A stretch of 64,000 nt of DNA, taken from the NCBI GenBank assembly GCA_021811315.1, contig JAJZPF010000004.1, positions 1 through 64,000 on the forward strand. Direction: 5' to 3'. A program made the position numbers and the translations under genes. The notes beneath the pieces were generated by a model that saw only the letters and a program-made list of their open reading frames with translations, was not told the origin of the DNA and did no database searches. Of this stretch, positions 20,807 through 51,379 are shown piece by piece (position 1 is the stretch's first letter; every line of letters begins with the position of its first letter). This stretch comes from a bacterium. Lineage in GTDB: Bacteria > Elusimicrobiota > Elusimicrobia > Elusimicrobiales > UBA9959.

Positions 20807-20936
20807 ATCGAACGCCCCGCTTTCCTTAATATAATGAGGGCTTCACCCGGCATTGACGCCGCGCCGGTCCCGCTATTGCAGCTGCACCCCGCGCGCGCTG
20901 ACATATATCATCAGCCGCCTTGCGCTCCCGCCGTTG

Positions 20937-20952
20937 TTTAGCAATTACTAAA
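20937..20952. promoter_or_regulatory. ArsR operator, site 1 (OmpP1/FadL gene)
   Basis: TTTAGCAATTACTAAA, with perfect 5-bp arms TTTAG/CTAAA. It matches the reverse complement of the site in front of arsR (22349-22364) at 15 of 16 positions. It lies 65 bp before the outer-membrane protein gene, in the likely promoter (TTGTTT / TATTAAA). Confidence 0.72.
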
Positions 20953-21016
20953 GTATTAAACTTCTTTCAAAGCCCGGCGGCCCGGACAGATTTGCGGCAA
21001 ATCAAACGGAGGAACA

Positions 21017-22243
21017 ATGAAAAAATCAGTCAACATAACAGCGGCGGCTTTCTTAATAGCCGGCCTGGCGGTGAGCGGGCACGCCACCAACGGCGACAAT
21101 CTCATCGGCGTGGGCCCCACTTCCCGCGCGATGGGCGGCACGGGCATAGCCGCCCCGCAGGACGCTATCAGCGCTATCTTCACGAACCCGGCCGGGCTCT
21201 CGCAGCTGAGCGGCTCCCAGTTCAACTTCGCCGGCACCTACTTCGCCCCCGTGGTGAAGGCCGCCGTGCTGGCCCCCTCGGGCGGCGGCATGCCCGGCAA
21301 CTGGAAAGCCACCAGCCAGGACGCGGCTTACGCCGTGCCCGCTATCGGCCTTACCGCCCCGATCAACGACAGCATGAACTTCGGCATAGCCGCCTTCGGC
21401 GTGTCCGGCATGGGCGTGGACTACCGCAACGAGCTCCTGACCAGCAATAAAGACCCGATGAACACCAATACCAAGGTCTCCGTCATGAAATTCGTGCCGG
21501 CGGTATCCTATAAAACAGGAGCCCTCTCGATAGGCGCGGGGCTCGACATAGACTACCAGGCCGCCGACTTCGGGGCCGGCCTCTCCCATAACTACGCCCT
21601 GGGCGCGCGCCTCGGCGCCGGTTATGAATTCGGCAAGTGGAACTTCGGCCTTACCTACGTAACCGCGCAGAACGTAGAGCACAAGCGCATCTACGACTTC
21701 GACGGGACCGGCGCGGGCGCGGCCTTCAACGGCTACGACACCCTAAAGCTGGAAAACCCCGCGCAGGTCGGCTTCGGCGCTTCCTATAAAGGCCTCGACA
21801 AATGGGTCTTCTCGGCCGATGTGAAGCGGATCGGCTGGGGCAGCGCCAAGGGCTACAAGGACTTCGCCTGGGAAAACCAGACCGTCTACGCCCTGGGCGT
21901 CCAGAACAAGCCCAGCGACAAGCTGACGCTGCGCGCCGGCTGGAATTACGGCAAGAGCCCGCTGAAAGTGCACAATAACTTCAACCTGGCCGGCATGACC
22001 GCCGTGCAGGGCAAGAACATGGGGACCTTCGGCTACGAGTACTTCCGCGTGATCGGCTTCCCCGGCATAGTGGAAACCCACCTAACCTTCGGGGCCGGTT
22101 ACGAGTTCTCGCCCAGGTTCGCCCTGAACCTCGGCTATAAGAAAGCCCTGGCCAAGACGATAACGGAGACCTCCGGGCCGGTCACGCTCAAGTCGGAGCT
22201 GTCGGAAACGGCTTACGACCTGGGCCTCAACTTCAAGTTCTAA
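21017..22243 (+). CDS. OmpP1/FadL/TodX-family outer-membrane transporter
   Basis: 408 residues with a signal peptide cleaved near GHATNG. The mature N-terminus shows GPTSRAMGGTGIAAPQDAISAIFTNPAGL, the hatch-region signature of the FadL family, followed by alternating beta strands and a C-terminal Phe (LNFKF). The family passes hydrophobic compounds across the outer membrane. Here the shared operator with the downstream sulfur locus suggests a sulfur-containing substrate such as polysulfide or sulfur, which is inference. GGAGGA lies 7 bp before the ATG. Confidence 0.9.
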   Translation: MKKSVNITAAAFLIAGLAVSGHATNGDNLIGVGPTSRAMGGTGIAAPQDAISAIFTNPAGLSQLSGSQFNFAGTYFAPVVKAAVLAPSGGGMPGNWKATSQDAAYAVPAIGLTAPINDSMNFGIAAFGVSGMGVDYRNELLTSNKDPMNTNTKVSVMKFVPAVSYKTGALSIGAGLDIDYQAADFGAGLSHNYALGARLGAGYEFGKWNFGLTYVTAQNVEHKRIYDFDGTGAGAAFNGYDTLKLENPAQVGFGASYKGLDKWVFSADVKRIGWGSAKGYKDFAWENQTVYALGVQNKPSDKLTLRAGWNYGKSPLKVHNNFNLAGMTAVQGKNMGTFGYEYFRVIGFPGIVETHLTFGAGYEFSPRFALNLGYKKALAKTITETSGPVTLKSELSETAYDLGLNFKF

Positions 22244-22253
22244 AGCGGGCTAT

Positions 22254-22277
22254 GCCTCCGCGGGAAACCGCGGAGGC
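22254..22277 (+). terminator. GC hairpin after the OmpP1 gene
   Basis: Perfect 10-bp stem GCCTCCGCGG / CCGCGGAGGC with a GAAA tetraloop. Only a short CTTTAAAAT follows, so termination may be partial. Confidence 0.6.
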
Positions 22278-22348
22278 GCGCTTTAAAATAAAGGGGATAT
22301 CTCCGCAGATATTCAGGTCCCGGGGCGCTGGAAAGTGTTTGCATCTTG

Positions 22349-22364
22349 TTTAGTATTTGCTAAA
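22349..22364. promoter_or_regulatory. ArsR operator, site 2 (arsR autoregulation)
   Basis: TTTAGTATTTGCTAAA, reverse complement TTTAGCAAATACTAAA, one mismatch from site 1. It fills the space between -35 TTTGCA (22338-22343) and -10 TAAACT (22361-22366, spacing 17 bp) and overlaps the latter. The predicted transcription start coincides with the arsR ATG. Confidence 0.72.
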
Positions 22365-22372
22365 CTATACCC

Positions 22373-22675
22373 ATGAAAGATACTTCCATCGCCAAGGCCG
22401 GGGAACTGGCAAAGATACTTCAGTGCATAGCCCACCCCCTGCGCCTGCTGATCATCTGCATGCTCGCCAAAAAAGAGCTGTTCGTGGGCGAGATCATAGA
22501 CAGGCTGGGGACCACCAAGGGGAACATCTCCCAGCATCTGCGGATACTGGCCGATAACGGCCTGATCGCCCGCCGCAGGGACGGGAACAGGATAATTTAC
22601 CGCATAGAGGACGAGAAGCTGGTGAAGCTGCTGGACGCGATGAAAAAACTGTACTGCCCCAAATTCAATCTTTGA
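22373..22675 (+). CDS. ArsR-family repressor, SqrR/BigR-like persulfide sensor
   Basis: 100 residues, a winged helix with IAHPLRLLIICML and the recognition helix TKGNISQHLRILADNGL. The arsenic/metal-type CVC box is absent. Cys29 (end of RLLIIC) and Cys95 (LYCPKF) are 66 residues apart, the same separation as the Cys41/Cys107 pair of SqrR and the Cys42/Cys108 pair of BigR, which form a polysulfide bridge. With sulfur genes following by 18 bp, a persulfide-responsive repressor is the best reading. No Shine-Dalgarno precedes the ATG; the message is probably leaderless. Cys18 is an extra thiol. Confidence 0.85.
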   Translation: MKDTSIAKAGELAKILQCIAHPLRLLIICMLAKKELFVGEIIDRLGTTKGNISQHLRILADNGLIARRRDGNRIIYRIEDEKLVKLLDAMKKLYCPKFNL

Positions 22676-22693
22676 GCCGGTCGGATTAAAAGC

Positions 22694-24271
22694 ATGAAAA
22701 AACCAATTATCATAACCGCCGCCCTGTGCCTGACAGGGGTAATTTTAATGGGGGTCCTGTCCGGCAAGGACGTGGAACCCGGGATCGTGGCCAAATTAAA
22801 AGCGAAATATTCCGTTAAACACGCGCCTTCGGCCGACCATGCCGGCTTCGAGGCGCTCAAAAAGAAATTCACCTCCCCCCGCCAGGTCACGGAGGCCTGC
22901 ATAAGCTGCCACAATAAGCGGCATAAAGAAGTGATGCGCTCCAGCCACTGGAACTGGGAACGCGAGGAATACGTGGAAGGCCGCGGCGTCGTCTACCTGG
23001 GCAAGAAGAACGCTATCAACAATTTCTGCGTGAGCACGCCCGGGAACGAGGGCAGCTGCGCGAAATGCCACATCGGCTACGGGCTGGACGCGCGGGGCAA
23101 GGGCTACACCGACCAGAACAACGTGGACTGCCTGATCTGCCACGACAATTCCGAAACCTACGCCAAGGCGCCCGACAAAGCCGGCGCCCCGGAGGCCGCG
23201 CTGGACCTCAACGCCATAGCCCAGAGCGTGGGCAGGCCGAAGCGGACCAACTGCGGCGTGTGCCATTTCTTCGGCGGCGGCGGGAACAACGTGAAGCACG
23301 GCGACCTGGAAAAAGCCCTGTTCGAACCGGACCGGGACCTGGACGTGCACATGGCTTCCTCCGGCTCAAATCTGCAGTGCGTGGACTGCCACACTACGAA
23401 GGAACACAATATTTCCGGGAAGATCTATTCCCTGGCTTCGATGAACCAGGAGCGGAGCAGCTGCGAACAATGCCATACCGCCGCGCCGCACGGCGACTCC
23501 GTCCTGAACGAGCATACTCTGAAAGTGGCCTGCCAGACCTGCCATATCCCGTCTTACGCCAAGGCCAACGCCACGAAAATGTCCTGGGACTGGTCGACGG
23601 CCGGGAAGCTTAAGGACGGAAAACCTTATATAGAGGAAGACAGCATGGGCAACCACGCCTATATGTCGATCAAGGGAAGCTTCGTCTGGCAGAAGAACGT
23701 CAAGCCGGATTATGTCTGGTTCAACGGCACCGCCTCGCATTACCTCAGGGGCGATAAAATAGAGGATACGGAAAAACCGCTGGTCCTTAACCCGCTTCAC
23801 GGCTCCTATGCCGACGAGGATTCCAAGATAATCCCGGTAAAGATACATACCGGCAACCAGCCTTATGACCCGGTGAATAAAATACTCATACAGCCGAAAT
23901 TATTCTCGGAGAAGAAGGGCGAGGGCGCTTACTGGAAGGATTTCAACTGGGAGGCCGCATCCCGGGCCGGGATGAAAGCCGCCGGTCTGCCTTTCAGCGG
24001 GAAGGTCGGATTTATAAAGACGGCGATGTACTGGCCGCTCAATCACATGGTGGCCCCAAAAGAGGCCAGCGTGAAGTGCGGGGAATGCCATGCGCGCTCC
24101 GGCGGCAGGCTCGCCGGCCTGAACGATTTCTACATGCCGGGCAGGGATTATTCCGCCGCGGTGGAGTTCGTAGGGAAGTGGCTGCTTCTCCTGTCGCTCT
24201 TCGGCGTCCTCGCGCACGGCGCAGGCAGGATCTTGAGCGCCCGGAAGCACAGGAACGGGGAAAACAAATGA
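22694..24271 (+). CDS. Octahaem tetrathionate-reductase-family cytochrome c
   Basis: 525 residues with an N-terminal signal/anchor (5-22) and a C-terminal transmembrane helix (about 487-506). Eight CXXCH haem sites start at residues 69, 122, 146, 187, 229, 257, 280 and 462, the count and uneven spacing of the Shewanella-type octahaem tetrathionate reductase family. Such enzymes reduce tetrathionate, and some members act on nitrite or hydroxylamine in vitro. The two anchors suggest it sits on the periplasmic face of the inner membrane and takes electrons from the cytochrome b next to it (ATGA overlap). Confidence 0.92.
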   Translation: MKKPIIITAALCLTGVILMGVLSGKDVEPGIVAKLKAKYSVKHAPSADHAGFEALKKKFTSPRQVTEACISCHNKRHKEVMRSSHWNWEREEYVEGRGVVYLGKKNAINNFCVSTPGNEGSCAKCHIGYGLDARGKGYTDQNNVDCLICHDNSETYAKAPDKAGAPEAALDLNAIAQSVGRPKRTNCGVCHFFGGGGNNVKHGDLEKALFEPDRDLDVHMASSGSNLQCVDCHTTKEHNISGKIYSLASMNQERSSCEQCHTAAPHGDSVLNEHTLKVACQTCHIPSYAKANATKMSWDWSTAGKLKDGKPYIEEDSMGNHAYMSIKGSFVWQKNVKPDYVWFNGTASHYLRGDKIEDTEKPLVLNPLHGSYADEDSKIIPVKIHTGNQPYDPVNKILIQPKLFSEKKGEGAYWKDFNWEAASRAGMKAAGLPFSGKVGFIKTAMYWPLNHMVAPKEASVKCGECHARSGGRLAGLNDFYMPGRDYSAAVEFVGKWLLLLSLFGVLAHGAGRILSARKHRNGENK

Positions 24272-24909
24272 AGAATATAAAAGAAGTCCTCATCTATTCC
24301 GGCTTTGAAAGGTTCTGGCACTGGGCGCAGGCGGGGCTGATACTTTTCCTCGCCTTCACCGGCTTCGAGATACACGGCGCCTATTCTTTCCTGGGCTTCG
24401 GCGACGCCGTCCGCTACCACAATATCGCCGCTTATCTGCTGATAGTGCTGATAGCTTTCGCTATCTTCTGGCACCTGACCACCGGGGAATGGCGGCAGTA
24501 TATACCGACCACGAAGAATATCGCGGCCCAGCTGGAATATTATGTCTTCGGGATCTTCAGGAACGCCCCCCACCCGACGAAGAAGACCGCGCTCTGCAAG
24601 CTGAACCCGCTGCAGAAACTGACCTACTTCAGCCTGAAGGTGTTCCTGCTCCCGGCTACCCTGGCCTCGGGCCTGCTCTATATGTTCTACCGCTATCCCG
24701 AGGGCGGAACCACCGGCTCGCTGACCATAGAGACGCTGCGGACTACCGCGGTCATCCATACCGCCTGCGCTTTCGCCCTGGCAGCCTTCCTCATCACCCA
24801 CCTCTACCTTATCACCACCGGGAAGACGGTCACGGCCAATCTGAAAGCCATGCTGACCGGCTTCGAGGACCTGGAAGGAACGGAATGCGAACCTGAGGCG
24901 GAGAAATAA
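24268..24909 (+). CDS. Membrane cytochrome b (b561/DUF4405-like), quinol-oxidising partner
   Basis: 213 residues with four to five transmembrane helices. Candidate haem-b ligands lie in FERFWHWAQAG, VRYHNIAAYLL, IFWHLTTGEW and VIHTACAF/ITHLYLITTG. It resembles cytochrome b subunits that carry electrons from menaquinol to periplasmic oxidoreductases. The start is the ATG overlapping the cytochrome c stop by four bases; a longer upstream frame is only a continuation inside that gene. Role as electron donor to the octahaem protein is inferred from coupling. Confidence 0.88.
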   Translation: MKNIKEVLIYSGFERFWHWAQAGLILFLAFTGFEIHGAYSFLGFGDAVRYHNIAAYLLIVLIAFAIFWHLTTGEWRQYIPTTKNIAAQLEYYVFGIFRNAPHPTKKTALCKLNPLQKLTYFSLKVFLLPATLASGLLYMFYRYPEGGTTGSLTIETLRTTAVIHTACAFALAAFLITHLYLITTGKTVTANLKAMLTGFEDLEGTECEPEAEK

Positions 24910-24930
24910 GCGGCCTGACCGAGGAACTTT

Positions 24931-25446
24931 ATGGAAGAAAAAAAATACATGAACTCTTACCTGGCCGGCTTTCTACTTGGCCTGCTTCTGCTGGCCACTA
25001 TCTTCATAACCGGCAGGGGGCTGGGCGCGAGCGGCGCGCTTAAAAGCTTTACCGTGGCGGCCATGGATACCGTGGCCCCGGCGCATACCGGTTCCGCCGT
25101 CTTCTACAAGGAATACGCCGGCGAGCACAGCGGCGGGCCGCTGAAGAACTGGCTGGTCTTCGAGGTGCTCGGCGTCCTGATCGGCGCTTTCATCTCGGGC
25201 CTGGTCTCGGACCGGCTCGGCCTTAAATTCGAGAAAGGCCCCTCGGCCACCAATAAGATGAGAATAGCGGGCGCGCTCTCCGGCGGCCTGCTCTGGGGCG
25301 TCGGCTCGCAGCTGGGCCGCGGCTGCACCAGCGGCGCCGCGCTCAGCGGCATGGCGGTCATGTCCACCGGCGGGATAATAACAATGGGCTTCATCTTCGC
25401 CGGCGCCTACGCGGTCGCGTATTTCTTCAGAAAATTGTGGATTTAA
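24931..25446 (+). CDS. YeeE/YedE-family sulfur transporter half (1)
   Basis: 171 residues, about four to five hydrophobic segments, with the family signature GSQLGRGCTSGAALSG; the Cys in GRGCTSG is the one that relays thiosulfate in YeeE/TsuA. At half the length of full YeeE it should pair with the next protein, which carries the complementary GFCPGT motif. GAGGAAC precedes the ATG. Confidence 0.88.
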   Translation: MEEKKYMNSYLAGFLLGLLLLATIFITGRGLGASGALKSFTVAAMDTVAPAHTGSAVFYKEYAGEHSGGPLKNWLVFEVLGVLIGAFISGLVSDRLGLKFEKGPSATNKMRIAGALSGGLLWGVGSQLGRGCTSGAALSGMAVMSTGGIITMGFIFAGAYAVAYFFRKLWI

Positions 25447-25464
25447 AGTTAAGGAGATAGTCCT

Positions 25465-26658
25465 ATGGGTCCTCTGGTTCCGGATATTATCAGCGCAAAC
25501 TTGAATTATATCGCCGCGCTCCTGATCGGCGTTCTTTTCGGCATGATCCTGGAGCAGGCCGGCTTTTCAAGCACGAAAAAACTGGTCGGCCTGTTCTACG
25601 GCTACGATTTCACCGTGCTGCGGGTCTTCTTCACCGCCGGCGTAACGGCCATGCTCGGCGTGATCGCGCTGGAGCATTTCGGGCTGCTGGACCTGAGCCT
25701 GGTCTATATCAACCCGACCTTTATCTGGTCGGCCATGGCCGGCGGCCTGATCATGGGCCTGGGCTTCGTCCTGGGAGGGTTCTGCCCGGGCACCAGCGTC
25801 TGCGCGGCGGCGATAGGGAAGATAGACGCCATGGTCTTCATAATCGGCGCCTTACTGGGCGTCCTGCTGTTCGCGGAAACCTACCCCGCCTGGGAACATC
25901 TTTACAAAGCCGGCTCCTGGGGCAGCCCCCGGATCTTCGAGACGCTCGGGATCTCGCAGAGCCTGTTCGCTTTCCTGCTGGCCGCCGTAGCCCTGTCCGC
26001 TTTCTGGGCCGTCTCAATTATCGAGAACAAGGTCAACGGGGTCAAAGAAGCGCCGGTCCGCTTCACGCCTTACTACCTCGCGCTGGCCTCGGCCGGCCTG
26101 CTGATGGCGGTTTCCTCTTTCGCGTTCACGCCCAGAAAAGAGTCCATATTGAAAGCGGCGGAGGCGCCCGGCTTCGCGCAGGCGTATAAACTCGATATGA
26201 TGACGCCGGACGAGTTCGCCTACAGGCTGATGAACGACCGGGAGGACAGGCTGCGGATCATGGATTTCAGGCCTGAGGCTGAACACGCCGGGCTGGACCT
26301 GCCCAAATCCTCCTCGTTCACAATGGACAATTTATTCGAGAAAGAGACTTCCAAAGCCCTCCTTATACGCGGGAGAATAAACGTCTTCGCCGCCGAAGAC
26401 GAATTGACGGAAAGAAAAATGGCCATAATAGCCGCCAGGCTCGGCTACAAGCGCATAAAGATACTGAAGGGCGGCCTGAAAGAGTTCAGGGAACAGATAT
26501 TGAATTTCAAGCCGGCCAAAACCGCGTCCGCTTTCGACAGGGATAACACTTACCGCTTCCGTGAAAAAGCCCGCAGGGAGCTCCCGGCTTTGCTCAAGAA
26601 CAGCAAACCCGCGGGTCCGGCCGTACATAAGGCCAAGCGCATTTTAGGCGGCTGTTAG
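25465..26658 (+). CDS. YeeE/YedE-family transporter (2) with degenerate rhodanese tail
   Basis: 397 residues. The first about 185 residues form a YeeE/YedE half with LGGFCPGTSVCAAAIGK. Another helix (about 208-225) leads to a cytoplasmic or periplasmic domain (about 235-350) with the rhodanese outline: PDEFAYRLMNDREDRLRIMDFR, then a strand and helix where the active-site loop should be (NVFAAEDELTERKMAI). No Cys is present in that loop, so the domain cannot carry a persulfide itself and may bind one from a partner. AAGGAGA precedes the ATG. It is the last gene of the sulfur operon. Confidence 0.87.
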   Translation: MGPLVPDIISANLNYIAALLIGVLFGMILEQAGFSSTKKLVGLFYGYDFTVLRVFFTAGVTAMLGVIALEHFGLLDLSLVYINPTFIWSAMAGGLIMGLGFVLGGFCPGTSVCAAAIGKIDAMVFIIGALLGVLLFAETYPAWEHLYKAGSWGSPRIFETLGISQSLFAFLLAAVALSAFWAVSIIENKVNGVKEAPVRFTPYYLALASAGLLMAVSSFAFTPRKESILKAAEAPGFAQAYKLDMMTPDEFAYRLMNDREDRLRIMDFRPEAEHAGLDLPKSSSFTMDNLFEKETSKALLIRGRINVFAAEDELTERKMAIIAARLGYKRIKILKGGLKEFREQILNFKPAKTASAFDRDNTYRFREKARRELPALLKNSKPAGPAVHKAKRILGGC

Positions 26659-26778: not shown

Positions 26779-26797
26779 TATGGTTCAGGGACGGTCT

Positions 26798-27469
26798 ATG
26801 GAAAACAAAATTTTCGAAATTTACGCGCCGGTGCGCAATACCATAAACAAGGCGCTGGGCGTAGTCGTTAAAGTCGCCGGCGACAATGTGACCGTGCAGC
26901 CCCTGACCGGGGACCGCCTGACTTTCCGCGCGCAATATCTGGCCCCGGCCAGCGAATCCGAGACGGCCGCTCTGCGCGACCTTACCTCCCGCCTCAAGCT
27001 GGAAGAAGAGAACCGCATTAAGGCGAAAACGATAAAGACGGACCCCGCGCTTATCCGCGTCGAATTCGAGAAATTCGTCCACCACATAGCGGCGCGCTAT
27101 CCCAAATCCGCCGAAACCTTCAGGGAATTCTGGGCCGAGCTGATGGCCGCGGCCGGTGACCTGCCGGGCCAGACCTGGGAGATGAAGCCAAATACCGCAA
27201 GCACCCCGGGCCCGGTGCTTAAGATCTATAATCCGTCCACGCAGAAATGGGTTTACTGCCTTACCCTGCTGGCCGGCTGGGGGCTGCGCATGGAGATCAA
27301 GAAAGAGTTCCTCCCGCCGGGCCGCGAAGCTCTTTTCCCCATAGACCACGCGATGTTCGGCGCGGGCAGGGCGGTCGAGCTGATCTATAAAGATTTCACC
27401 CCCGAAAAACGCAAGCCTTACGCGGACTGCGTCCGGGAAATTTACGCCAAAGTAGTCCTTCCGCCCTGA
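26798..27469 (+). CDS. Hypothetical cytoplasmic protein
   Basis: 223 residues, no signal peptide or membrane segment. The first about 60 residues look like a small SH3/Tudor-like barrel (GVVVKVAGDNVTVQPLTGDRLTF); a charged helix follows, then an alpha/beta part (VLKIYNPSTQKWVYCLTLLAGWGLRMEI). I do not recognise the family. It has its own promoter and stands alone between the sulfur operon and the surface-protein block. Confidence 0.6.
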   Translation: MENKIFEIYAPVRNTINKALGVVVKVAGDNVTVQPLTGDRLTFRAQYLAPASESETAALRDLTSRLKLEEENRIKAKTIKTDPALIRVEFEKFVHHIAARYPKSAETFREFWAELMAAAGDLPGQTWEMKPNTASTPGPVLKIYNPSTQKWVYCLTLLAGWGLRMEIKKEFLPPGREALFPIDHAMFGAGRAVELIYKDFTPEKRKPYADCVREIYAKVVLPP

Positions 27470-27595: not shown

Positions 27596-29830
27596 ATGAA
27601 AAAACCGGAAGCTGAATTCGCGCTTTGTCTGGCTTTGCTATGGCCGGGCATTTTGAACGCCGACGTGCCGTATCAGATGAACTTTCAGGGGCGCATAGAG
27701 CTGCCTGTGGCGGAAATCGAAGGTGAAGGGGGGCGCGGCAATAAAGAAGCCAGCGAATCGGTCCCTTTTAACGGTACCGGCAGGTTCAAGTTCGCCATAG
27801 TCTCAAGCAGCGGCGGCGTATTCTGGACCAATGTAGCAAATGAATTTTCAGTTCCCCCGTCCGCAAGCGTTTCCATCCCGGTCGATAACGGCGTTTTTAA
27901 CGTCGCGCTCGGCGACCCCGCTTTGAATATGCCGCCTATCAGGCCCGAAATATTCAGCGGGGCCGACAGATATTTAAGAGTGTTCTTCCAGGGCGAGACA
28001 ACTAAAGGCAATAAAACAAAACTTACCGCCGAGCGCGAGCTCCTGCCGCCGCAGAAACTTCTGACCGTCCCGTTCGCTTTCGTCGCTGCGAAGGCGGGCG
28101 AGGCTATTACGACCGAGCGTTTAGGGACGCTTCTGGCCGGAGCGACGGTTCAGGGCACATTCGCCATCGCCCAGAACGCGGTTATTCTGGGGTCCGCTGT
28201 TGTTCAAGGAAATGCAATAGTGAATGGAAGTGTTCTGGCTTATGGGACAATTGCTTCTGCTGATTCTTGTGGTATAAATGGTGATTATATTGGTTGCGGT
28301 CCTAACCCAGGATTTCTTGTTGCCACAACACTTAATCCTGGTTCATTAATTCCATCTCCCTGGCCTATTACAGGCGGATCCTCTTTAAATATCGAAGCCG
28401 CGGGCGGCCTGTTTTTAAACCAGATAGCCACCGGCCCCGTTTCAATAGCGGCAGGCGGCGGTTTAGTCCTGATAAGCACGCCTCCCGGGTCCGGCAATGT
28501 GGGGATAGGCACTGCCAACCCCGCCTTCAAACTGCACATTTCTTCAGGCGCGGGGGAGCCCGGCGACATACTGGTCGTTTCAACCGGCGCAAGCAATATT
28601 TTCCGGGTCAACGGCCGCGGCGAAGTCAGCGCCAATAAATATTACGGCGACGGCAGCGCTTTGACTGGGCTTGCCGCCGGCGGAGTTCCCGCGGCCATCT
28701 CTGTCTCCACGATCAACGCGGCGCCGGCAACCCCATTCGGGGGCGTGAACATAACGACCAGTGTTTTTATCAGCCGGGGAAGCCTGGGCATAGGCACGGT
28801 TACGGCCACGGAAGCCCTGCATGTCGCCGGAACAGCTAAATTTGACGGCGCGATAAAAATCGGAGACAACCATTTACTCGGGCTGTATCCGGACGAACTT
28901 CAACAGTTCTGGTGGCAGCTTCCCGCTCCGAGCACAAGCGTGGTTTTATATGCAAAACCCACTTATAATTCGTGGAATGACGCTATCGGGAACGTAATTT
29001 ATCTCGCGCCGAGCGGCGTGCCCTCCGGCAGTTCCTATACCCAGGACATATATTTTGCCGGAACCGACCCTGTTGATCCAGTTACGGGGAAGATCACAAG
29101 CAAATTTTCCGGAACATTTCTGGAAGCTTATTTCGCCCCTTCAGTTACTCCGGTCCTCTCCGGCTCTTTGATAGGCGTATCTGATTTTGAAACCTGGAAC
29201 CAGGGGTATTCTCTCCGGACAGCGTCTGATAATGGGTTCTGGTATTATTCCTGGGACGATACTCACTCAAGCCAGTTCCGTGCGGGGCCTTCAGATTTTT
29301 CCTATAACGGTGCATACGTGTACGGTGGCGGCCATTCTGGAGGTTTTGGTTATGATGTGGCGGGGAAAAGATTCTGGGCAGACGGCACAAAAAGTTTCAT
29401 CCAGGATTATCCCGGCGACCCTTCAAGGACCATTTCATATTATTCGCTGGAAGGCCCGGAGGCCGGCATATATGTGAGGGGAACGGCCAAGCTCTCCGGC
29501 GGGAAGGCGAAGGTGATCCTGCCGGACTACTTCACCGTTGTCGCCAGCACGGCATTTCAGGCTACTGTCCAGGTGACGCCCAGGGGGGATTGCCAGGGGC
29601 TTTATGTTTTCAGGCAGGCTAATGGCGAGATAGATATAAGGGAACTCGGCGGCGGGAAAAGCGATGCGGAGTTCGATTACTTCGTGCAGACCGTAAGAAA
29701 AGGTTATGAAAATATACCTGTAGTCCAGAATAAGGACGCCGCGCCTGAAAGTTATAAAACGATGAAAATGCCGCCGAACGAAATGAAAAATAGGATCAGG
29801 ACCGGCGGGAAGCGCGGGAAGTTGAAATGA
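27596..29830 (+). CDS. Large secreted surface protein with tail-fibre-like repeats
   Basis: 744 residues with a signal peptide (to about NADV). Residues 22-170 form a beta-rich N-terminal domain (YQMNFQGRI ... PQKLLTVPFAFVA) common in proteins carrying collar/fibre repeats. Two segments of the form NVGIGTANPAFKLHISS and SLGIGTVTATEALHVAG resemble phage tail-fibre and S74-adhesin repeats, but no S74 chaperone domain ends the protein. Around 28200-28370 the DNA is clearly AT-richer than its surroundings. It overlaps the next gene (ATGA). Probably cell-surface displayed; ligand unknown. Confidence 0.78.
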   Translation: MKKPEAEFALCLALLWPGILNADVPYQMNFQGRIELPVAEIEGEGGRGNKEASESVPFNGTGRFKFAIVSSSGGVFWTNVANEFSVPPSASVSIPVDNGVFNVALGDPALNMPPIRPEIFSGADRYLRVFFQGETTKGNKTKLTAERELLPPQKLLTVPFAFVAAKAGEAITTERLGTLLAGATVQGTFAIAQNAVILGSAVVQGNAIVNGSVLAYGTIASADSCGINGDYIGCGPNPGFLVATTLNPGSLIPSPWPITGGSSLNIEAAGGLFLNQIATGPVSIAAGGGLVLISTPPGSGNVGIGTANPAFKLHISSGAGEPGDILVVSTGASNIFRVNGRGEVSANKYYGDGSALTGLAAGGVPAAISVSTINAAPATPFGGVNITTSVFISRGSLGIGTVTATEALHVAGTAKFDGAIKIGDNHLLGLYPDELQQFWWQLPAPSTSVVLYAKPTYNSWNDAIGNVIYLAPSGVPSGSSYTQDIYFAGTDPVDPVTGKITSKFSGTFLEAYFAPSVTPVLSGSLIGVSDFETWNQGYSLRTASDNGFWYYSWDDTHSSQFRAGPSDFSYNGAYVYGGGHSGGFGYDVAGKRFWADGTKSFIQDYPGDPSRTISYYSLEGPEAGIYVRGTAKLSGGKAKVILPDYFTVVASTAFQATVQVTPRGDCQGLYVFRQANGEIDIRELGGGKSDAEFDYFVQTVRKGYENIPVVQNKDAAPESYKTMKMPPNEMKNRIRTGGKRGKLK

Positions 29831-32800
29831 ACGGAAGGAAAACGGGAAGAACGGCAATAATAATCCCGGCGCTTTACGCGCTGGGCGGTCTGTTCTCCTG
29901 CCTTTTTGCGGGAGATACCGGAACAACAGGCGGCGTTAGCGCCGGGGGGTTGATATCCGGGGATAACCGCATGGCCGGTTCACTCCAGGGTATAGGCGGA
30001 CCATTTAGTAAATGGGGCGGTGAAAGCATCGGCAACAGCGGCGGCGGTTTTGTTTACGCCGCATCAGGCCGGACAGGAGCCACGGATAAAAGGCCAGAAT
30101 TTACAAGGAAATCCCCCGACCCAGACAAGCCCCCCATAGCCGATAAAGTGAGTTTTTCGCAGTCTCAACCTGAGACAAAAGTAAGCATAGACGATATCCG
30201 CAGCATAAGTTTCGGCATGGAAACAGCGGACGCAGCACCTGGAAGCGGTTTTTCAGTAAAAAGCGCAAAGGCAGATGTCGCCGTAAATAAGGTTTCCGAT
30301 TTCAGGCCCGGCTGGAATGACGAAATAAAATATCCGGAGGTTGAAGACGGGGTGGATCTGTATTACCAGGCCCGCGGCAACAGGCTTGAAGAGGACATAG
30401 TGCTTAAAAAGCCGCCCCAAAAAAACACCTTTAATTTCAAGCTGAATATGCGGGGTCTTACAGCCATACCGCAAGCCGACGGGACAATACATTTCCGTGA
30501 CGACCAGTCCGGGCAGTTGATGTTTTATTTTGACAAGCCGTTTATGATTGACAGCGCCGGCAGTAGATCCGAAGGTGTGCACTTGAAATTACTAAGCCCT
30601 GGAAAACTGGTTGTGGAAGCAGATTCAGGCTGGCTCTATAAGGAGGCTAGACAATACCCCGTTGTTATTGATCCAACTTTAGTCTTTGTGTCAACATTTA
30701 GCGGCTGGGGTGGGGCAGAACCTCTCCTTCGAACAGTCAAAGATAATTCGGGCGGTTTATACATACTGTCTAACTCCTCCGCTAGTGTGGCCGGGCTTGG
30801 CTATAATTATTCAACTAGTGCCGGAGAAATATGGTCGCTTACGGAAATAACTACAACCACAGCTTCCTGCCCGCGTTGCGCTATAGCTGTGGATTCAGCC
30901 AAAAAAACTCATATTGTGTTCGGAACTTATTACAATCCTTATTCTATAGCCTACATCAATAACGTCACTGGAACATGGGCCGCTCCGGAATTAATTTCAG
31001 CCAATACCACTTTTTTTCAGCCGGTATCACACGATTGGGGAGATTACGGAATAACTTTGCTTAGTGATTCCGCGAACAATCTGCATTTAATATGGCCCTC
31101 CGGCAATAATGGGGGAACAATTTATTATTCAAAAAAGCCGTCGGGTGGCAATTGGACAGCGCCACAAACCCTGAATAATCCGGCGGCACAGCCATTGCAC
31201 GGCGCGGCAATGACAGTGGATGGCAACGATAAACTGCATTTAATCGGCTGGTATGATTATACCAATGGTTATGCCGTATATATGAATACTTTGTCCGGGA
31301 CATGGTCAACGCCGGAAATTATATATAGTTCATATTGCGGTTGGGGCAGTATTGCCATCGACAATAACAATAAACCCCATGTTGCTCTTTATGCTAGTTG
31401 GTGGAAAACAGCATACCTTAATAAAGTTCAGGCTACATGGTCTAATCCACTATTATTAAAATGCATGTCTCATGCGATAATAGGAACTGATAAACATAAT
31501 AACTCCCATATTGTGTGCGAACCCGGCGGCGGCCTTGCCTCTGTCCCGAATCCTCGGCAATTGTATCAAACCAATAATGTAAATGGAGTCTGGTCGCCGT
31601 CTGTTCCGACCCCTTTTAATGAAGTAATGGGCTCTATGGATGCAGTTCTGGATAAAAATTTAACCATTTGGCATATGGCTCTGCTACATGGAAGAGGCCA
31701 AGGGGGATTTGCTTCAGAGGGCCCCGTCAGTTATTACCGTCTGGACGATTTAACTCCGCCCGCTCTGATACGTGATTTGAAAGCGGGCCCCGGCATAAGC
31801 TCCGGCACCATTGTGCTGAACTGGACCGCGCCCGGCGGCGACGGAATGAGCGGCGCGGCTTCGCGCTACGACGTGAAGGTGGCCACCTGGCCGGTAATAA
31901 ACCAGGACGATTACGATTCGCTGCCCGTTTATTCAACCTGGACGGCGCCCCGGCCCGCCTACAGTCCCGAAAGCCATGTGGTGAGCGGCCTTGCCGGCGG
32001 CGTGACCTATTACATCGCCGTTTTAAGCTTTGACGCCCAGAACAACGCCTCTTATGTTACAAGCGCCGCCAATATCGTAGCCGGCACGGTGACGCCTATT
32101 GCGCTCAGCGGCTGGAGCGTTTCAGCGGCTGCCGCATCGGCTGACACAGCTATACTGCCGCCCGCGGACCTTAAAGGCGGTGTTCTGCCGGATTTGAAAG
32201 TAAAGCTTGAGTGGTCGCCTTCGCCTTCCACTAAAACGGTCGCGGCTTACTCCGTTTACTGGGATTCGGGCGCCGGCGTCATGGATTATATAACACCGCT
32301 GGCTTCCGTTGTCCCGCCCGCCACCTCATACACTACGGTGTCTCTGAGCACCGGCGTATACCGCTTCGGCATAAGATCCGCGGCCGGCAACGGCATAGAA
32401 GAGCCGAACACAAGCGTGGTTGTGTCTGTTAAAGTGGATACAGTTGTTGTGAACGTTCCTGTCCGCGCTGAAATAAAAGTTCCGCAAAGCGGCAAGCGGA
32501 TAGCGGGCAACCGTGTAACTGTTCTGGCGGAACTTGGAACCGGCAGTCCTTCCGTTGTCCGGCAGGTGCTGTTTCAGTATCGCGCGGCGGGTTCAAGTTC
32601 GACAGTCTGGAACGATATTCCCGCGGCCGGATACAATCAATCCAATCCTGCCGCCAGTCAGCCTTATTTCATCCACTGGGATGTAAGCGGACTTTCCAAC
32701 TGGGATTACGAACTGCGGGCAGTGGCTGCGAACATATATGGCCAGGCCGACCCGGCGCCGCCGTCAATTTTTGTGAGCATAGACGCCGCCAATCCGCAGA

Positions 32801-33591
32801 TAGAGGAAAAGGCCGTGGGAAGTTCGCAGCAGAAGCGGACGGAGGTGTATAACACTGTTTCCAACAAGGTGGAATTAGGCGCGGAAAACGGGACACTCAT
32901 ATCGGTCACTTTGTCCGCCGGGGTGGTGACGGCTGCGGCAACAACGCTCAAGACGGTGTCAAATCCGCCGTCCGTTCCGGCGGCTGGCAGCGCGCTTTTG
33001 CCGGCGGGCCAGAATTTAGGGCTTACCCTGGAAAACGGGCAAACAATGCTTAACAGCCCGGCCACGCTTTCCCTCCAGTACCAGGACGGCGATAACGACG
33101 GCCTGGTGGACGGGACCTTGGCCAGGGCGGATAAGCTGGCCATATATGCCTATGATCCGGCTTCCGGGCAATGGCGGAAAGAATCCGCCAGCTCCATAGA
33201 CCAGATAGGGAAAACCGTCACCGCACAGACGGCCCACTTCAGCCTCTTCGGCCTGTTCGCCCCCGCCGCGGCGGATCTGTCGGATGTGTTGGTCTATCCC
33301 GTCCCCTGGGTGCCCAACGACGGCAACCCCGACAACGGCAAGCCCTATAACAGCGCCGACCCCGCCTCGGGGATCGTGTTTGATAATCTGACGCAGTCGG
33401 CCAGGATCCAGATCTACACTATAACGGGCGAGCTTGTCTGGGAAAAGACGACAGACACCTCCAGCGGCAAATTACAGTGGGACGGGAAGAACAACTCGGG
33501 CAGGAACGCGGCTTCGGGCGGCTATTTCGCGGTTATCACCGACACAGCGGACGGGAGCAAAATAACGCGCAAAATAGCGGTAGTGCGGTGA
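29827..33591 (+). CDS. Very large secreted multidomain protein with FlgD-like C-terminal domain
   Basis: 1254 residues. A signal peptide or signal anchor (to about 28) is followed by a region resembling the beta-rich N-terminal domain of SBBP-type surface proteins (DGVDLYYQARGNRLEEDIVL, about 165-290). A stretch of WSTPEIIYSS-like repeats (about 300-620) suggests a beta-propeller. Two fibronectin-III-like domains (about 645-880) follow, then a C-terminal FlgD/T9SS-type Ig-like module (DVLVYPVPWVPNDGNP ... GELVWEKT, WDGKNNSGRNAASGGYFAVI). That last module is the outer-membrane secretion or attachment signal in related systems. Codons in 30550-31740 are lower in GC than the rest. Confidence 0.8.
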   Translation: MNGRKTGRTAIIIPALYALGGLFSCLFAGDTGTTGGVSAGGLISGDNRMAGSLQGIGGPFSKWGGESIGNSGGGFVYAASGRTGATDKRPEFTRKSPDPDKPPIADKVSFSQSQPETKVSIDDIRSISFGMETADAAPGSGFSVKSAKADVAVNKVSDFRPGWNDEIKYPEVEDGVDLYYQARGNRLEEDIVLKKPPQKNTFNFKLNMRGLTAIPQADGTIHFRDDQSGQLMFYFDKPFMIDSAGSRSEGVHLKLLSPGKLVVEADSGWLYKEARQYPVVIDPTLVFVSTFSGWGGAEPLLRTVKDNSGGLYILSNSSASVAGLGYNYSTSAGEIWSLTEITTTTASCPRCAIAVDSAKKTHIVFGTYYNPYSIAYINNVTGTWAAPELISANTTFFQPVSHDWGDYGITLLSDSANNLHLIWPSGNNGGTIYYSKKPSGGNWTAPQTLNNPAAQPLHGAAMTVDGNDKLHLIGWYDYTNGYAVYMNTLSGTWSTPEIIYSSYCGWGSIAIDNNNKPHVALYASWWKTAYLNKVQATWSNPLLLKCMSHAIIGTDKHNNSHIVCEPGGGLASVPNPRQLYQTNNVNGVWSPSVPTPFNEVMGSMDAVLDKNLTIWHMALLHGRGQGGFASEGPVSYYRLDDLTPPALIRDLKAGPGISSGTIVLNWTAPGGDGMSGAASRYDVKVATWPVINQDDYDSLPVYSTWTAPRPAYSPESHVVSGLAGGVTYYIAVLSFDAQNNASYVTSAANIVAGTVTPIALSGWSVSAAAASADTAILPPADLKGGVLPDLKVKLEWSPSPSTKTVAAYSVYWDSGAGVMDYITPLASVVPPATSYTTVSLSTGVYRFGIRSAAGNGIEEPNTSVVVSVKVDTVVVNVPVRAEIKVPQSGKRIAGNRVTVLAELGTGSPSVVRQVLFQYRAAGSSSTVWNDIPAAGYNQSNPAASQPYFIHWDVSGLSNWDYELRAVAANIYGQADPAPPSIFVSIDAANPQIEEKAVGSSQQKRTEVYNTVSNKVELGAENGTLISVTLSAGVVTAAATTLKTVSNPPSVPAAGSALLPAGQNLGLTLENGQTMLNSPATLSLQYQDGDNDGLVDGTLARADKLAIYAYDPASGQWRKESASSIDQIGKTVTAQTAHFSLFGLFAPAAADLSDVLVYPVPWVPNDGNPDNGKPYNSADPASGIVFDNLTQSARIQIYTITGELVWEKTTDTSSGKLQWDGKNNSGRNAASGGYFAVITDTADGSKITRKIAVVR

Positions 33592-49207: not shown

Positions 49208-51379
49208 TCATTTACGCTTTGAGGCATGCGGGGGCACGTCCACCGGCAAAGAATTTACCGTTTCCATGTTCCTTACCTTGTCCATACTGAAAAAATAGAC
49301 CATATGCTTTCCAGGAGGCAGCTCTACCGGCTTAGTGTATATCCCGGCCGCCCTTGACCCGGCAGGGGTGGTATCTAAAGCGTAAAAGACGCTCTGAACC
49401 TTGGAACTCACGCCATTAGAGACAGGGTCCATGGCCGATAAAACCAATTCCGCCCCATTCAGCGCAGACGTAGTTACCGGCGGAGTGCCGTCCACGGACA
49501 GCCTCATCGATATGGGGAACTCATAATTCCCGGCTTTATCCTGGGCCAGATATGAAAGCGTATGCACGCCTTCCTTCATGGTGAACGGCTGCGTGTAAGT
49601 TGACAACTGCACGTCTCCTTGCGGAGCATCTTTGGATTGCAGAAAGTAGAATATACCGGCGAGCCCGGAGGTCAGTACATTTGGAACTTTTGCGTCTTCG
49701 GCCGTTAACACAACGAACGTCTTGGAAGAGATGTATTCTCCCTCCCGTGGACCGCTGAAGGCTATTTTAGAGGTAGGCGGTATGCCATCCGGATAAAATA
49801 AGGGCGGCTGGTTCTCCGCTTGGGTAGAACTGCCCATAACGGCGAAAAGCTGATATGTGCGGGGCACCATTGCGGTCAATAAATTCCCGTCTTTGTCGCG
49901 CGTAAGATAGGGAAGTTGGTATACGTCCCCGTTAAAACTTATCGTGTAAAGGGCCAGCGTGTTCTCATCTATCCCCAGGGCGGAGACCGTTTTATCCGAG
50001 TAGCGCATTTTCAGCGCACCCGAAGGCTCTAAGTTCTGGCCCTCCGGCCAGACCCGGTAGACATTGCCGACCGGAAGCCTGTTTTGATCCTTTAAGTTTT
50101 GGATAATCCTAAAGCCCTCCTTGCTTTTCAGGTCGAAGAGCGACAGTTTTGCTGTAACTCCGGATAAAAATTCAATTTCAGGTTTTTTTCCTTTGGCCCC
50201 GCCGAGAGGACCAGTTGCGTGTGCCGAATCGTACTGCGGGGCAGTGAGCATATACTTGCCCAGCCCCTTCAACTCCGCAGTGAGCTTATGCTTCCCGGCC
50301 AGGTTACTGACAGGCATTTCAGTATATATACCGTTCCGCGGGTCATCCACGCGGACAACTTTAAGCGCGGAGATCTGGCTTGGAGAAAGTTTTAAGGCGC
50401 CGTAGTCAATGGCCAGGCGTACACTGTCGAACTGCAAACCGTTCCAGCTACGCAGAATGAACGATGCCCCGATAGCATCAGTATACCCGTTGGGAGGGCG
50501 TGCTGTCGTCCAGGTAGTAGATATCTCCCCGGGTTTCCTTACGTTCTTGAATGCCAGGGACAGACCGTTGCCCAGCAGAAGGCTGTACGTGCCGGTTTCT
50601 GGCACGGTACGCCATGGGCGGCTTGTTCCCACCTCCAGCACTCTGTTGTTCGTGAGTGGAATAGACTCTCCGGGCTTCAGACGCCGCATCACCTTGCCGC
50701 CATCCAGCGTAAAACGCAATTGGCGATAGTTGCCCTTCTGATCCGAGAGCTGAAGTATGAATTGGGTCAATTCCTGGGAAGCCGGAACGCTCGTGTCAAA
50801 AGATGAGACGGCTTCCTTCCCATTTGGGGAGACCTCACCGAGCAGTTTCCCGTTTTGAATAAGCTCAAGTTCACGCAGACCTTCGCTGGCACGGCCTTTT
50901 ACGGCCAGGTGAACATCTATCGAGTTCGGTCTTTTTCCTTTAGACGCATAGGAACGCTCAAGGGCCAACTCCGGCTCTATTTCCGCGACCCATATACGGT
51001 TCTCGGACAATCCCCCTACGCTGTTGTATGAGCGGATATAGTACGGACCGGCTGGCAGGTCATATACGGCTAAGCCTGTGCTTTTTACCGGCGGAGTGAA
51101 CTGTTGTGCGTAAACCACTCCATACGGGCCGGTTATGGATATTGTGCTGACCCCCGCCATGTCCTCACTGAAAGAGAACGACCTTCTCCTGCCGGTGAGG
51201 AATATTTGCGGCGCCGCGGCGCCGCGGAAACCCTCGATCGGAGGGGCCAGATTCCCATTAACCGTGTCTTCCTGCGCCGAGTCGGCATACGGGCCGAACT
51301 TCACGTTCTTGTAATCGCCCGCCGCGCAATCGCGGCCGACCAGTGCCACAAACGCGGCCAGTAAGATCATTTGTCGCAT
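49208..51379 (-). CDS. Large secreted Ig-like surface protein
   Basis: 723 residues: signal peptide (to about GRDCAAG), several beta-sandwich segments (for example GPYGVVYAQQFTPPVKS and LELIQNGKLLGEVSPNGKE), and two OmpL47/chitobiase-type Ig-like repeats near the C-terminus (about 545-715: KTFVVLTAEDAKVP..., HTLSYLAQDKAGNYEF, VFYALDTTPAGSRA). Such domains scaffold surface or extracellular proteins. Codon use is somewhat lower in GC than core genes. No catalytic motif seen. Confidence 0.72.
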   Translation of the reverse strand: MRQMILLAAFVALVGRDCAAGDYKNVKFGPYADSAQEDTVNGNLAPPIEGFRGAAAPQIFLTGRRRSFSFSEDMAGVSTISITGPYGVVYAQQFTPPVKSTGLAVYDLPAGPYYIRSYNSVGGLSENRIWVAEIEPELALERSYASKGKRPNSIDVHLAVKGRASEGLRELELIQNGKLLGEVSPNGKEAVSSFDTSVPASQELTQFILQLSDQKGNYRQLRFTLDGGKVMRRLKPGESIPLTNNRVLEVGTSRPWRTVPETGTYSLLLGNGLSLAFKNVRKPGEISTTWTTARPPNGYTDAIGASFILRSWNGLQFDSVRLAIDYGALKLSPSQISALKVVRVDDPRNGIYTEMPVSNLAGKHKLTAELKGLGKYMLTAPQYDSAHATGPLGGAKGKKPEIEFLSGVTAKLSLFDLKSKEGFRIIQNLKDQNRLPVGNVYRVWPEGQNLEPSGALKMRYSDKTVSALGIDENTLALYTISFNGDVYQLPYLTRDKDGNLLTAMVPRTYQLFAVMGSSTQAENQPPLFYPDGIPPTSKIAFSGPREGEYISSKTFVVLTAEDAKVPNVLTSGLAGIFYFLQSKDAPQGDVQLSTYTQPFTMKEGVHTLSYLAQDKAGNYEFPISMRLSVDGTPPVTTSALNGAELVLSAMDPVSNGVSSKVQSVFYALDTTPAGSRAAGIYTKPVELPPGKHMVYFFSMDKVRNMETVNSLPVDVPPHASKRK

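Follow-up and report, generated by a model that had tools for sequence, protein, structure and literature searches.

A shared operator before fadL and an arsR-otr-cytb-yeeE operon suggests a persulfide-responsive sulfur regulon in Elusimicrobiota

Operators and genes of the locus

The stretch of DNA analysed here (the window) comprises 64,000 nucleotides, positions 1-64,000 of contig JAJZPF010000004.1 in assembly GCA_021811315.1, from the Elusimicrobiota lineage UBA9959. At positions 20937-26658, it carries a fadL gene encoding an outer-membrane channel, followed by arsR, otr, cytb, yeeE1 and yeeE2, which encode an ArsR-family repressor, an octahaem tetrathionate reductase (OTR) family cytochrome c, a cytochrome b and the two halves of a YeeE/YedE transporter (Table 1). 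The original prediction held that two matching 16-bp sites tie fadL to the arsR genes. Both sites were found, one before fadL and the other over the arsR promoter, and protein family scans confirmed the proposed gene identities (FadL, ArsR, octahaem cytochrome, cytochrome b561 and two Sulf_transp proteins). The statement that the sites differ at one base holds if one of them is read on the other strand; in gene direction, three bases differ within the same near-palindrome, TTTAG-N6-CTAAA. The first operator ends 64 bases before the fadL start, and the second ends 8 bases before the arsR start.

Candidate promoters for both genes were read by eye, as was a stem-loop that is perhaps the end of the fadL transcript. 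The second operator occupies the spacer and covers the -10 element of the candidate arsR promoter, where a bound repressor would block RNA polymerase. Relatives were sought in 340 Elusimicrobiota genomes for the phylum and in 32 genomes for the genus, and a profile of the ArsR gave 34 matches in 32 of the 340 genomes. At 25 of these 34 loci, the promoter reads TTGACA, 17 or 18 bp, TAAACT (TAAAGT in one case), and the operator again falls in the spacer and extends across the -10 element. Loci of the otr type in this genus, including that of the window, have no TTGACA.

Presence of the motif at orthologous loci had been set beforehand as a test of the prediction, and 32 of the 34 arsR genes carry it with at most one half-site mismatch (exact at 29 loci; one mismatch in genomes G105, G115 and G116; absent in G135 and G229), its first base lying 24-52 bases upstream of the arsR match start. 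A weight matrix was built from 31 arsR sites, from which the fadL site of the window was excluded. The arsR sites score 21.7-31.0, and the fadL site, at 26.8, falls within this range and above all 29 exact genus sites located away from both arsR and fadL (5.8-23.2). In an alignment with genome G144, the operator before fadL is kept within an otherwise diverged intergenic region. When the window was scanned with up to three mismatches, four matches were obtained, which are both sites counted on two strands; 100 shuffled windows gave a mean of 0.51 matches, and one of them reached 4. Of 20000 dinucleotide shuffles each, 7 produced exact TTTAGN6CTAAA for the 120 bp upstream of fadL and 11 did so for the 129-bp gap between fadL and arsR. 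Taken together, these comparisons give good support to co-regulation of fadL and arsR-otr-cytb-yeeE1-yeeE2, presumably through binding of ArsR at both operators.

Two other exact sites in the window's genome (G000 C48:46669-46684 and 49592-49607; L133:4670 and 7593) were considered as further members of the regulon and rejected. They lie at a DtxR/FeoA-FeoB locus, the first preceding a DtxR-FeoA fusion gene and the second just past the following feoB, and are better read as iron boxes, which shows that these two operator types overlap. The fadL site could by the same token be an iron box or a chance match, with fadL merely a neighbour. The sites at the iron locus carry TTTAGG or CCTAAA arms, which we take to fit the iron-box consensus, and with scores of 22.2 and 10.3 they stay below the fadL site (26.8). 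The rarity of the pattern in shuffled sequence, its preservation in G144 and the ties of fadL to this arsR in other arrangements (see below) also argue against coincidence, and we consider this explanation very improbable.

Table 1. Features of the locus, in positions of the window.
Feature	Position	Strand	Basis
Operator 1, TTTAGCAATTACTAAA, before fadL	20937-20952	no strand	sequence search; matrix score 26.8
Candidate fadL promoter: TTGTTT (20934-20939), 17 bp, TAAACT (20957-20962); overlaps operator 1	20934-20962	+	by eye; identical hexamers and spacing in G144 alignment
fadL, FadL/OmpP1/TodX-type outer-membrane channel, 408 amino acids	21017-22243	+	PF03349, 95.5 bits (cut-off 29.7)
GC-rich stem-loop with GAAA loop, between fadL and arsR	22254-22277	no strand	by eye
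Candidate arsR promoter: TTTGCA (22338-22343), 17 bp, TAAACT (22361-22366)	22338-22366	+	by eye
Operator 2, TTTAGTATTTGCTAAA on the + strand, before arsR	22349-22364	no strand	exact upstream of 29 of 34 orthologous arsR
arsR, SqrR/BigR-like repressor, 100 amino acids, Cys29 and Cys95	22373-22675	+	PF01022
otr, octahaem tetrathionate reductase family cytochrome c, 525 amino acids	22694-24271	+	TIGR04315, 590.8 bits (cut-off 375)
cytb, cytochrome b561-type membrane subunit, 213 amino acids	24268-24909	+	PF01292, 97 bits (cut-off 30.1)
yeeE1, PmpA-like half of YeeE/YedE transporter, 171 amino acids	24931-25446	+	PF04143, positions 175-309 of 310
yeeE2, PmpB-like half and further membrane spans, 397 amino acids	25465-26658	+	PF04143, positions 4-156 of 310

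The repressor and the proteins under its predicted operators

The winged helix of the ArsR matches its family at 50.5 bits against a cut-off of 22. When solved relatives were ranked by bit score, the thiol sensors BigR (3pqj, 64.4 bits) and YgaV (3cuo, 59.1 bits) came first, and the metal sensors trailed (SmtB 42.9, CadC 32.3, CzrA 28.1 and arsenic ArsR 26.5 bits), in agreement with the predicted kinship. The two cysteines were predicted to be spaced as in BigR-type sensors; Cys29 and Cys95 are indeed 66 residues apart, and both occupy the alignment positions of the paired cysteines in BigR, YgaV and HlyU. All 24 aligned orthologues have both cysteines, as do all 11 further, more distant rows, which comprise family members and two Acidobacteriota metagenome-assembled genomes (MAGs); the ArsRs of these two MAGs have a one-residue gap ahead of the second Cys. 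TsoR was considered as a nearer relative and set aside, since the window ArsR reaches 34.4 bits, under the TsoR cut-off; a literature search on TsoR and ArsR yielded a single paper, on antibiotic resistance in Proteus. SqrR and SoxR/sHdrR are ArsR repressors in which a sulfane-sulfur bridge between two conserved cysteines releases DNA, according to passages of PMC9995734, PMC10451225 and PMC12423496 (the other papers are likewise cited from parts of their text). By analogy with SqrR, BigR and SoxR (PMC9995734, PMC5823870, PMC10451225), the window ArsR is expected to sense persulfide through such a bridge.

An AlphaFold2 model of the FadL (predicted local distance difference test score 87.6) shows a barrel with N-terminal hatch helices (34-63), so that the protein shares family, fold and hatch with the FadL/TodX channels and differs from them by its tie to sulfur genes. 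Its top NCBIfam match is BamG (49.2 bits), and the barrel might accordingly be a BamG-like assembly part instead of a transporter. That score is far under the BamG cut-off of 250, and in structure comparison the best solved folds were E. coli FadL (E 4e-22) and TodX (6e-21) versus 4e-11 for a BAM component chain, which makes an assembly role scarcely credible.

The OTR contains eight CxxCH motifs, and its residues 53-472 align with Shewanella OTR 1sp3 (E 3e-131); Lys158 aligns with Lys153 of 1sp3, presumably the lysine haem ligand. It thus resembles known OTRs in its TIGR04315 match, motif number and long alignment, whereas the window adds a cytochrome b, a split YeeE, a sulfur-type repressor and a FadL. 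The closest NCBIfam model to cytb, thiosulfate reductase cytochrome B, scored below its cut-off. YeeE1 and YeeE2 cover the two Sulf_transp halves in the manner of PmpA and PmpB, which together cover the two halves of long YeeE proteins (PMC11582611); the related YedE1E2 imports zero-valent sulfur (PMC10812762). YeeE1 has a single Cys (Cys132). YeeE2 differs from the PmpAB, YedE1E2, SoxT and TsuA importers in that it is longer, has a weak rhodanese-like domain without Cys (PF00581, 21.3 bits against a cut-off of 22.2) and ends in a Cys; its cysteines are residues 107, 113 and 397, and the C-terminal Cys397 is found in five of five relatives. Neither half reached the TsuA equivalog cut-off of 400 (44.3 and 18.2 bits).

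The YTD cluster of sulfur disproportionators joins yedE, tusA and dsrE. The window operon differs from it, as a family scan of the operon proteins gave no TusA or DsrE match. After yeeE2 lies a gene for a 229-amino-acid protein without a Pfam match (26780-27469), which occupies the same place in G134, G144 and G149. Further downstream, a reading frame of 1254 amino acids (29827-33591) resembles a large secreted protein.

Arrangements in relatives and in a second phylum

OTR relatives were found in 10 of the 340 phylum genomes, five of these in the window's genus; the fetched stretches of the five outside the genus gave no yeeE or fadL match. G144 has radC, operator and fadL in the same order as the window, with otr on another contig and the region that precedes it cut by the contig start. 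In G143, operator-arsR-fadL-operator stands at the end of a contig; the last 126 bases there are identical to the first ones of another contig, which carries a second arsR and otr. The second otr copy of this genome (C136; L081:412-1936) is interrupted and in two pieces, and an intact otr lies on C105.

The arrangement recurs in Acidobacteriota. Two Thermoanaerobaculaceae MAGs (G340 and G341) carry operator-arsR-otr-cytb-yeeE1-yeeE2, and their fadL lies on a different contig. The fadL of G340 has an exact operator starting 56 bases upstream, the right flank of which resembles the arsR promoters. Their FadLs nest among those of Elusimicrobium MAGs (100/99), which makes horizontal transfer likely. 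In a sample of 297 Acidobacteriota genomes, a yeeE2 profile matched nine, four of them at full length, and one of these four (G392) has a contiguous fadL-otr-cytb-yeeE1-yeeE2. The G392 FadL is distant from that of the window and groups with a Thermodesulfovibrio MAG FadL (100/97); FadL and OTR may therefore have joined at least twice.

In 17 of the 32 genus genomes, the operator and arsR head a different operon, with Hdr/Qmo-like genes and DsrE/DsrE2. Its content was established by protein family scans on the operon of locus L083 and on DsrE from other genomes, and by tblastn in the remaining genomes. The order is MvhD/FlpD, two HdrA-like flavoproteins, a 97-amino-acid protein, a QmoC-like protein and DsrE and/or DsrE2, after which the same fadL closes the operon in 16 of the 17 genomes; in G141, the set is divided between two contigs. 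DsrE2 belongs to a sulfur-carrier family, so fadL ends a sulfur-trafficking operon in these genomes. No TusA match was found among the L083 operon proteins scanned. In the window's own genome, the only Hdr match was one of 62 residues (41% identity) to the second HdrA, with that Hdr protein as the sole query and an assembly that is 63% complete. Neither Pfam nor NCBIfam gave a match for the 97-amino-acid protein (L083:12575-12868 and homologues), which is encoded after the second HdrA and ahead of the QmoC-like protein. At most hdr-type loci (e.g. L083:8302-8351), the arsR start codon stands about 8 bases after the -10 element, and judging by this spacing the arsR message may be leaderless there. 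One hdr-type operon, in G109, has a fadL-proximal operator inside it in the form of an extended palindrome (L153:9898, also L244). Other copies of the pattern lie inside open reading frames (a third site in L153, 14416, and the C10 site of G127, L095:5531) or at the start of one (the C37 site of G127, L094:5497).

FadL of this kind occurs in 24 of the 340 phylum genomes, and in 21 of the 24 it shares a contig with arsR within 6.7 kb. A contig end intervenes in the other three, where hdr/dsrE genes (G110 and G141) or the operator (G144) adjoin; L152 was taken as the G110 contig, its coordinates matching. Across the 340 genomes, which are related to one another, 22 have both ArsR and FadL, 2 have FadL alone, 10 have ArsR alone and 306 have neither. 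The predicted tie of FadL to sulfur genes was therefore borne out more strongly than claimed, through the hdr/DsrE2 operons, the Acidobacteriota and G392, while FadL proved not to be obligatory and a sulfur oxyanion is doubtful as its cargo.

A general link between FadL and sulfur across bacteria was also considered, and this broad claim was dropped. At 55 loci of the wider FadL family, outside Elusimicrobiota and the two Thermoanaerobaculaceae MAGs, DsrE2 lies in the flanks of five (L163, L172, L176, L181 and L214), the flanks often being cut by contig ends. We scanned 40 of 129 putative operon neighbours, from 23 loci; the 129 include L154 and L155. Besides the DsrE2 loci, they comprise parts of molybdenum oxidoreductases (L187 and L192), multihaem cytochromes (L164 and L170) and many unrelated proteins. 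In a Hydrogenobacter MAG (L176:8214-11528), a distant FadL relative two genes upstream of tusA and dsrE2, with Hdr-like matches beyond, is possibly another pairing of FadL with sulfur genes. In a Persephonella MAG (L192:4849-11149), a 1090-amino-acid molybdopterin oxidoreductase and a ferredoxin-type protein lie upstream of a distant FadL relative.

The FadL/TodX relatives characterised so far transport fatty acids and aromatics. The FadL of this regulon may likewise carry an unrelated hydrophobic organic compound (a fatty acid, an aromatic or an organosulfur compound) that benefits the cell in the same circumstances, as its nearest solved relatives are FadL and TodX and as many relatives outside Elusimicrobiota have no sulfur neighbour. 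No genes of fatty-acid or aromatic catabolism were seen in the operons scanned, and a channel gene that closes DsrE2 operons throughout most of the hdr-type genomes and heads the otr-yeeE operon of G392 points to sulfur, so that we regard an organic cargo as unlikely.

Several observations weigh against a common sulfur regulon that includes FadL. Across the 32 genus genomes, the pattern has 55 forward matches and its reversed control has 42; since it is hardly commoner than the control, the case for the operator rests on position. Two of the four fadL-proximal sites score in the background range (19.9 in G109 and 11.2 in G340), and G341 has only a degenerate site before fadL. The ArsR misses the NCBIfam BigR equivalog cut-off (80.3 versus 155 bits), and we therefore call it BigR-like and not BigR. 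The close relatives G134 and G149 also carry operator-arsR-otr-cytb-yeeE1-yeeE2 at this radC locus but lack FadL of this kind, which makes fadL a frequent but not an obligatory partner; the hdr operon of G132 and the otr-yeeE genes of G409 are also without fadL, and G392 has neither arsR nor the operator at its fadL-otr locus. Among 30 genomes with the wider FadL family, OTR is present in six, and the neighbours of that family are mixed. The incompleteness of the window's assembly belongs here too, as does the breadth of OTR substrates, tetrathionate being one candidate for the physiological one.

OTR also acts on nitrite and hydroxylamine in vitro. The OTR may on these grounds be a nitrite or hydroxylamine reductase, with an ArsR that answers another thiol-modifying signal and a regulon that serves nitrogen metabolism or redox stress. 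ArsRs with a Cys pair can sense oxidants, and SoxR is also able to form a disulfide under oxidising conditions (PMC10451225). Set against this are the YeeE/YedE genes after otr, the DsrE/DsrE2 genes behind the same operator in relatives, and the 36-fold rise of otr with tetrathionate at day 8 in a Thermoanaerobaculia relative, Ca. Sulfomarinibacter (PMC8528874). We judge a nitrogen or redox regulon to be improbable.

A proposed sulfur regulon and its relation to known systems

On the evidence of operator, gene order and family membership, the two transcription units probably form a persulfide-responsive regulon for sulfur reduction and import, with FadL as the outer-membrane entry. In this regulon, ArsR on TTTAG-N6-CTAAA would repress two promoters, its own (for arsR-otr-cytb-yeeE1-yeeE2) and that of fadL. 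A rise in persulfide or polysulfide would place a sulfur bridge between Cys29 and Cys95, upon which ArsR would leave both operators and both units would be expressed. FadL would admit hydrophobic or chain-like sulfur species through the outer membrane, cytochrome b would hand quinol electrons to OTR, and OTR would use them in the periplasm to reduce tetrathionate or a related sulfur compound. Sulfane sulfur or thiosulfate would enter the cytoplasm through the split YeeE1/YeeE2 transporter, closing the loop on the ArsR sensor.

Parts of this scheme have precedents. In Acinetobacter baumannii, BigR controls a yeeE-yedE-pdo2 operon; related genes occur in Serratia. In the Acinetobacter operon, as proposed for the window, a split YeeE/YedE transporter is repressed by a BigR-type ArsR whose Cys pair senses persulfide (PMC7315123). 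That operon serves detoxification by a persulfide dioxygenase, whereas the window operon has no persulfide dioxygenase, and an octahaem cytochrome, a cytochrome b and, in a separate unit, FadL stand behind a common operator. Hdr-type sulfur genes are controlled by sHdrR (PMC12423496) and, it seems, by the relatives of the window arsR. SqrR and SoxR/sHdrR serve sulfide or thiosulfate oxidation, whereas the Elusimicrobiota branches have an OTR-type reductase or a Qmo-like set instead. In Desulfurivibrio dismutans, a porin encoded next to periplasmic sulfurtransferases and YeeE/YedE has been suggested to assist import across the outer membrane; the passages of PMC12142623 do not name this porin FadL and do not mention a shared ArsR operator. 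Control of yeeE-yedE by BigR (PMC7315123), control of Hdr genes by an ArsR (PMC12423496) and a porin beside YeeE/YedE (PMC12142623) are thus already known. A full-text search of the open-access literature, with subscription papers mostly outside it, found no link of FadL with sulfur import or with a sulfur regulon under an ArsR. The word FadL is absent from PMC10812762, PMC12423496, PMC9774250, PMC7315123, PMC12998232, PMC13047784, PMC5823870, PMC11582611, PMC12142623 and PMC8528874; in PMC10092268, PMC4287430 and PMC10487802, it appears in the context of fatty acids, secretion or acid stress, as far as their passages go.

Channels of the FadL family take up hydrophobic molecules, and this FadL would accordingly be better suited to S8 or long sulfane chains than to tetrathionate. 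One could tentatively view this FadL branch as an outer-membrane channel dedicated to sulfur in elemental or chain-like form (S8, long polysulfanes), induced by a persulfide-sensing repressor alongside either the OTR/YeeE or the Qmo/Hdr and DsrE/DsrE2 machinery, although we hold this narrower proposal with less confidence than the regulon itself. To our knowledge, the passage of hydrophobic sulfur across the outer membrane is an open question, and a dedicated sulfur FadL, if confirmed, would supply this missing step in hydrophobic sulfur uptake by two-membrane bacteria. Taken together, these results place an octahaem tetrathionate-type reductase under the operator of a sulfur-type repressor and tie a FadL-type channel to sulfur handling through the shared operator, the place of fadL within the operon of most relatives and the recurrence in a second phylum. 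The operator can also be used to recognise sulfur regulons of uncultured Elusimicrobiota.

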